Part shown: positions 2,353 through 2,545 of the stretch, piece by piece | How positions within the stretch are numbered: position 1 is the first letter of the stretch | Layout of the letters: each line of letters starts with the position of its first letter | Assembly: GCA_025356015.1 (NCBI GenBank) | Contig: JANXYO010000040.1 | Span: 1 to 64,000, forward strand | Reading direction: 5' to 3' | Length of the DNA: 64,000 nt | From: Spirochaetaceae bacterium | GTDB lineage: Bacteria > Spirochaetota > Spirochaetia > Treponematales > Rectinemataceae | Notes under the pieces: generated by a model | Seen by the model: only the letters and a program-made list of their open reading frames with translations | Database searches by the model: none | Told to the model about the DNA's origin: nothing | Made by a program: the position numbers and the translations under genes

Positions 2353-2385
2353 AAAGCGCCGGCCTCGATGTGCCGGCGCCGCTTT
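2353..2385 (-). terminator. Attenuator terminator hairpin of the his leader
   Basis: Read on the minus strand, an 8-bp GC stem (GCGCCGGC / GCCGGCGC) with an 8-base loop is followed at once by TTTGTCTTT. It lies 23 bases upstream of the hisG start and downstream of the His-rich leader peptide. This is where an intrinsic terminator is expected in a classical attenuator. Confidence 0.75.
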
Positions 2386-2409
2386 CCCGAAAAGGACCCG
2401 TTATAAACG

Positions 2410-2438
2410 GGAGCGCCGGCCTTGCCGGCCGGCGCTCC
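2410..2438 (-). promoter_or_regulatory. Alternative hairpin of the his attenuator
   Basis: A perfect 11-bp stem (GGAGCGCCGGC / GCCGGCGCTCC) with a 7-base loop lies between the leader peptide and the terminator. Its 3' arm, in transcript sense, contains GCCGGCGC, which is exactly complementary to the 5' arm of the terminator (GCGCCGGC). The two structures can therefore exclude each other: freeing this arm would form an antiterminator. The exact pairing partners on the peptide side are inferred. Confidence 0.65.
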
Positions 2439-2461
2439 GAAGGCTGCGCGCTATCGCGCGG

Positions 2462-2545
2462 CTATGCGGCGGCAACCGGCCCGTAGGTATGGCAGTGATG
2501 CCGGTGGTGGATAGCCGTGGTCTCGATGCGCCCGACTGCAGTCAT
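2462..2545 (-). CDS. hisL: His operon leader peptide
   Basis: A 27-residue open frame on the minus strand contains IHHRHHCHT, with five His codons within seven positions, and ends at TAG 24 bases before the first attenuator hairpin. This is the layout of a transcription-attenuation leader: with little charged tRNA-His the ribosome would stall on the His codons and free the antiterminator. A GGGAGGA lies upstream but 12 bases from the ATG, which is long for a ribosome site. A -10-like box ends 8 bases before the ATG, so the message may start almost at the ATG. His codons are sparse in most genes here, so chance is unlikely. hisL is used for its role, not for sequence homology with the enterobacterial peptide. 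Confidence 0.8.
   Translation of the reverse strand: MTAVGRIETTAIHHRHHCHTYGPVAAA

Follow-up and report, generated by a model that had tools for sequence, protein, structure and literature searches.

A predicted histidine attenuator, probably leaderless, before hisGCB in Rectinemataceae and its counterparts in other phyla

Can the histidine-synthesis genes of a spirochaete be governed by translation of a short His-rich peptide? The question is raised by a stretch of 64,000 nucleotides (the window) from a genome of the Rectinemataceae, a family of the Treponematales (Spirochaetota) that includes Rectinema subterraneum. A sequence-only reading had described a complete and classical histidine attenuator ahead of hisGCB. 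Control of hisGCB by a ribosome-mediated transcription attenuator is highly probable, and the switch would most likely let the cell turn on its histidine-synthesis genes only when histidine is short. A peptide-based his attenuator before hisG in a spirochaete (Rectinemataceae, Treponematales) is supported, its relatives having kept both the His codons and the hairpins. The mechanism is of a known kind; its leaderless form, its range and its tie to one HisG lineage appear not to have been described.

Leader peptide, promoter and hairpins in the window

The genes hisG, hisC and hisB lie downstream of the leader, as had been read. hisB is truncated at window base 1, where the contig ends, and the remainder of the operon is not visible. 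The features are as follows.

3079–2618, end at 2615, minus strand: gene of the ferritin family, immediately upstream of the his promoter
2583–2554, minus strand: sigma-70 promoter predicted by a promoter scan (–35 TTGACA, 2583–2578; 18-nt spacer; –10 GATATT, 2559–2554)
2545–2462, minus strand: leader peptide ORF of 27 codons, MTAVGRIETTAIHHRHHCHTYGPVAAA (ATG at 2545, TAG at 2464–2462)
2509–2489, minus strand: control codons CAC CAC CGG CAT CAC TGC CAT (HHRHHCH), a His run conserved in 24/24 Rectinemataceae
2504–2490, minus strand: strand A, within the control-codon run
2481–2465, minus strand: strand B, GGCCGGTTGCCGCCGCA, in the last leader codons, partner of A or, as antiterminator, of C
2438–2427, minus strand: strand C, GGAGCGCCGGCC, which B targets and which provides the 5′ arm of the conserved terminator
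2421–2410, minus strand: strand D, GGCCGGCGCTCC, which provides the 3′ arm of that terminator
2409–2401, minus strand: CGTTTATAA, the U-tract that follows the first terminator hairpin; weak in the window
2388–2344, minus strand: second hairpin E:F, terminator-like (E, 2388–2372; F, 2363–2344)
2340–2335, minus strand: Shine-Dalgarno sequence AAGGAG of hisG
2329–1433, minus strand: hisG, for a long-form ATP phosphoribosyltransferase with a HisG_C domain
1436–429, minus strand: hisC, histidinol-phosphate aminotransferase family (TIGR01141 is the best match, below its curated cut-off)
432–1, minus strand: hisB, imidazoleglycerol-phosphate dehydratase, partial, cut by the contig end

An ORF rich in the end-product amino acid precedes hisGCB, and the leader of 27 codons with five His codons in seven positions is confirmed on the minus strand. 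About 130 nt separate it from the hisG start at 2329. In the whole window it is the sole short ORF (10–60 aa) with five His in nine codons; Markov-resampled windows yield on average 0.05 ORFs of such His density. The interruption of its His run (HHRHHCH) may weaken ribosome stalling.

The predicted –10 box of the window ends 8 nt upstream of the leader ATG, which leaves almost no 5′ UTR. In a simple promoter scan, the –10 box ended 6–12 nt 5′ of an in-frame leader start codon in 56 of 58 Treponematales loci; in non-spirochaete loci it lay 6–10 nt 5′ of the leader start codon in 24 of 28. Because the box sits so close to the start codon in those 56 loci, a leaderless mRNA is probable for the leader peptide. 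A start about 7 nt past the –10 box would coincide with the start codon or lie only a few bases from it, with no room for a Shine-Dalgarno sequence. In the window, judging from where the predicted promoter lies, the most likely transcription start is the leader ATG itself (2545) or a position no more than ∼3 nt from it, and initiation would be leaderless.

The region 2335–2480 folds far better than shuffled sequence (z –5.6), and the RNA of 2330–2583, whose folding the earlier reading had suggested, is also more stable than its shuffles (z –3.4). Tandem terminator-like hairpins with mutually complementary arms (D:E) occupy 2344–2438, in agreement with that reading; the pairing energies are –28.6 (C:D), –27.1 (E:F) and –19.7 kcal/mol (D:E), and native D:E pairing beats that of swapped partners overall (7/5000). 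The U-tract of the first terminator is poor in the window, while relatives often have a long T-run, and the T-tract of E:F, TTTGTCTTT, is imperfect. Strand B imitates strand D. The antiterminator helix B:C (2481–2465 with 2438–2427) shares arm C with the terminator C:D and excludes it. Two points of the earlier reading need revision: the terminator had been placed in the hairpin adjoining hisG, whereas the conserved one is the first hairpin (2438–2410), the second being present only in some relatives; and the attenuator called complete did have its leader and hairpins, but its antiterminator strand B (2481–2465) had been missed.

Alternative helices and translation-dependent folding

All 59 leader loci examined have, 3′ of the leader stop, a stable hairpin with T-rich sequence after it, which places an intrinsic terminator between the leader and the first gene. 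Both helices that compete for arm C covary. In the Rectinemataceae alignment, C:D is 98.8% paired, with a covariation of 0.373 against 0.205 in shuffled alignments (0/500), and B:C is 86.8% paired, with 0.270 against 0.157 (0/500). Covariation of C:D likewise exceeds that of its slid controls; those of B:C all stay at ≤0.125. The sister family f5 follows the same logic in other bases (GAGUCC..GGACUC..GAGUCC), its B:C helix (GAGUCC/GGACUC) being 97.6% paired (5/500 shuffles). When partners are swapped among loci, native B:C pairing is superior overall (0/5000) and within the Rectinemataceae, family f1 (0/5000), less strongly so within f5 (198/5000) and not significantly within f3 and f4. Single-sequence shuffles of B:C were underpowered, with badly cut terminator arms, and were superseded by partner swapping and covariation. 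The covariation of B:C in the Rectinemataceae and f5, together with folding that depends on the position of the ribosome, points to a mutually exclusive antiterminator that uses an arm of the terminator. Helix A:B is 73.5% paired in the Rectinemataceae alignment and its covariation does not exceed that of shuffles, partly owing to a shift of the window's His run in that alignment. Pairing energies computed sequence by sequence do favour the native A:B partners in f1 (43/5000), and A:B is energetically strong in the window.

The second hairpin is less constant. It carries a clear T-run in 6 of 24 Rectinemataceae, and most relatives lack E:F or have a different hairpin. At a few loci (L025, L029, L042, L044, L051 and L053) the terminator picker took this second hairpin. 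Its outer helix can pair in the window with the AAGGAG before hisG, as would be expected if translation of the leader acted on a hairpin masking the Shine-Dalgarno sequence of hisG and not on a transcription terminator. Such translational attenuation is improbable, since E:F varies among the very relatives in which C:D and a T-run are found at all 59 leader loci, and C:D lies some distance upstream of hisG.

How the helices would exchange during transcription was followed by folding the nascent transcript with the bases under the ribosome footprint kept open. With a ribosome stalled on the His codons, B:C is formed (∼10.8 pairs) until much of D has been made. With a ribosome at the stop codon, B:C is reduced to 0 and C:D forms. 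With no ribosome, A:B forms, B:C stays at 0–0.2 before the terminator is complete, and C:D follows. Imposing B:C leads D to pair with E before F is made. At equilibrium, the C:D helix, once complete, outcompetes B:C even when the ribosome is stalled, and therefore the switch must be kinetic. A kinetic decision is the general assumption for attenuators.

Comparison of the sequences shows the leader and its conservation, the terminator, its competitor B:C and where the promoter lies; from this arrangement we infer the following course of regulation by transcription attenuation. A ribosome would load on the leaderless mRNA and translate the His-rich peptide behind the RNA polymerase. When His-tRNA is ample, it would reach the stop codon (2462) and cover B, so that C:D forms and transcription ends after 2410. 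When His-tRNA is scarce, it would stall at 2509–2489 and cover A, and the freed strand B would pair with C while D is still to be transcribed; D may then pair with E, neither terminator would form in time and hisGCB would be transcribed. By its energy, D:E pairing would also delay the second hairpin. In an untranslated leader, A would pair with B and the terminator would form.

Range among spirochaetes and other phyla

The earlier reading had suggested a search of relatives for a conserved His-rich peptide before hisG. Among 25 Rectinemataceae genomes with hisG, 24 have readable upstream DNA, and all 24, that of the window included, have a His-rich ORF ahead of hisG that ends 105–176 nt before the HisG match. 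In the sister families of the Treponematales, the leader is present in 13/13 (f4), 14/21 (f5) and 9/26 (f3) loci. By these counts the leader is the rule in two families and frequent in a third, with a patchy occurrence in f3. Comparable leaders were found in none of 50 hisG upstream regions from other spirochaete orders and classes, where the covariance model described below reaches at most 5.8 bits. In f3, 16 of the 26 hisG loci are without a His leader, besides one doubtful ORF (L082); the loci concerned are L080–L082, L085–L088, L239–L248 except L243, and L251. Members of f3 with hisG but no leader suggest that the attenuator was lost or replaced there. Three f5 loci (L055, L056 and L059) have an extra GC-rich hairpin segment between terminator and hisG, and their leader is pushed to about –340.

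A covariance model, R1, was trained solely on Rectinemataceae leaders. It matches the leader before hisG in 13/13 f4 loci and, at E ≤ 0.001, finds matches before hisG in 26 of 54 sampled loci of other phyla (Acidobacteriota, Gemmatimonadota, Planctomycetota, Myxococcota and Pseudomonadota). Matched loci include a 6.0 Mb Acidobacteriota record (CP011806.1) and a Longimicrobiales chromosome (OX639991.1), and therefore mis-binning of short contigs cannot account for every case in other phyla. In the genome of the window there is a single strong match, before hisG, and every strong full-length match in the Rectinemataceae precedes hisG. Weak matches elsewhere (E about 1e-7 to 1e-3) are on the opposite strand, cover the terminator only or, among the six inspected, resemble gene ends or coding sequence.

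A same-strand ferritin-family gene ends at 2615 and the hairpins look like terminators, so they could be the ordinary terminators of that gene, the His-rich ORF being due to chance or encoding an unrelated peptide. This is very improbable given a predicted promoter that adjoins the leader in 56 of 58 loci, a leader conserved over four families and other phyla, the expectation of ∼0.05 equally dense His runs per 64 kb by chance, and a covarying antiterminator B:C.

Rectinemataceae HisG is 58–71% identical to HisG of the Phycisphaerales, Myxococcota, Acidobacteriota and Gemmatimonadota and of its own family, as against mostly about 25–37% for other spirochaete orders. In the HisG tree, the Rectinemataceae and f4 group with the sequences of other phyla (SH-aLRT 100), f3 and f5 branch just outside them, and the remaining spirochaetes make up a group of their own (95; rest 97). 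The tree alone is no proof of transfer, because the set from other phyla was picked by similarity to the Rectinemataceae. Spirochaetota have at least two distant HisG lineages (L089–L138, L236–L258): the Treponematales have a HisG similar to those of Planctomycetota, Myxococcota and others, whereas other orders have a different one without the leader.

There may, with the balance about level, be one RNA family of leaderless His attenuators, tied to a single long-form hisG lineage, which spread with hisG between phyla, including into an ancestor of the Treponematales. With the same even weighting, it would comprise members in Spirochaetota (only Treponematales), Planctomycetota, Acidobacteriota, Gemmatimonadota, Myxococcota and Pseudomonadota. 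Rfam lacks a family for this element. One model recovers a His attenuator ahead of related hisG genes in six phyla, where Rfam searches miss it, and the attenuator is distributed with the hisG gene rather than with the species. The wider range that the earlier reading foresaw for peptide-based his attenuation is borne out and is linked to one HisG lineage in several phyla. A 2013 survey with Rfam models suggested that amino-acid attenuators may stem from gammaproteobacteria, with few transfers (PMC3766115). If the proposed family is real, His attenuation is not chiefly a gammaproteobacterial invention.

Relation to known leaders

The enteric his leader, as in E. coli hisL, combines A:B, C:D and E:F against B:C and D:E, and the same logic is found here. 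Common to both are a peptide with a His run before hisG, alternative hairpins and an intrinsic terminator. The E. coli his leader has a 5′ UTR, whereas here the –10 box lies directly before the leader ATG; a further difference is that the conserved terminator is here the first hairpin after the leader. Neither RF00514 (His_leader) nor the T-box (RF00230) matches at gathering score in the window or at any of 20 related loci, and no other Rfam family reaches threshold there. As a control, RF00514 matches E. coli hisL at 131.6 bits; R1 matches it weakly (11.9 bits, E = 0.12). The term classical, in the enteric sense, is therefore not retained, RF00514 being without a match and the leader mRNA being predicted to be leaderless.

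T-boxes and HisR are reported to control his genes in Gram-positive bacteria (PMC9413887), but regulation of hisG by a histidine-specific T-box or protein-binding leader, with an incidental peptide, is barely credible in view of the lack of Rfam matches in the window and the 20 related loci and of room for an aptamer before the leader, the predicted 5′ end falling at the ATG.

That peptide-based his attenuation is best known from enteric bacteria was a fair statement, but His attenuators have already been predicted in three Firmicutes lineages, the Bacillus cereus group, Peptostreptococcaceae and Erysipelotrichales (PMC9413887). As described there, they resemble the present leaders in the His-rich peptide, the terminator, the antiterminator and the absence of an RF00514 match. 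They belong to another phylum and have other sequences, and the position of the leader 5′ end is not among the features given in the section consulted. In a survey of actinobacteria, no attenuator was found for histidine (PMC1262725). The open-access papers found on spirochaetes and the other phyla contained no description of a His leader, which does not establish priority.

Leaderless attenuators are already known for other amino acids. The trpL peptide of Sinorhizobium meliloti is a documented case (PMC7298713), and in Streptomyces lividans leuL, trpL, ilvL and thrL are leaderless, with no His leader among eight (PMC8079986). In all of these, as predicted here, the transcript starts at the ATG of an ORF rich in the regulated amino acid, although the amino acids and operons are others. 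The predicted leaderless start would make the his leaders well suited to testing whether the fast ribosome–polymerase coupling required by attenuation can be sustained on leaderless mRNAs.
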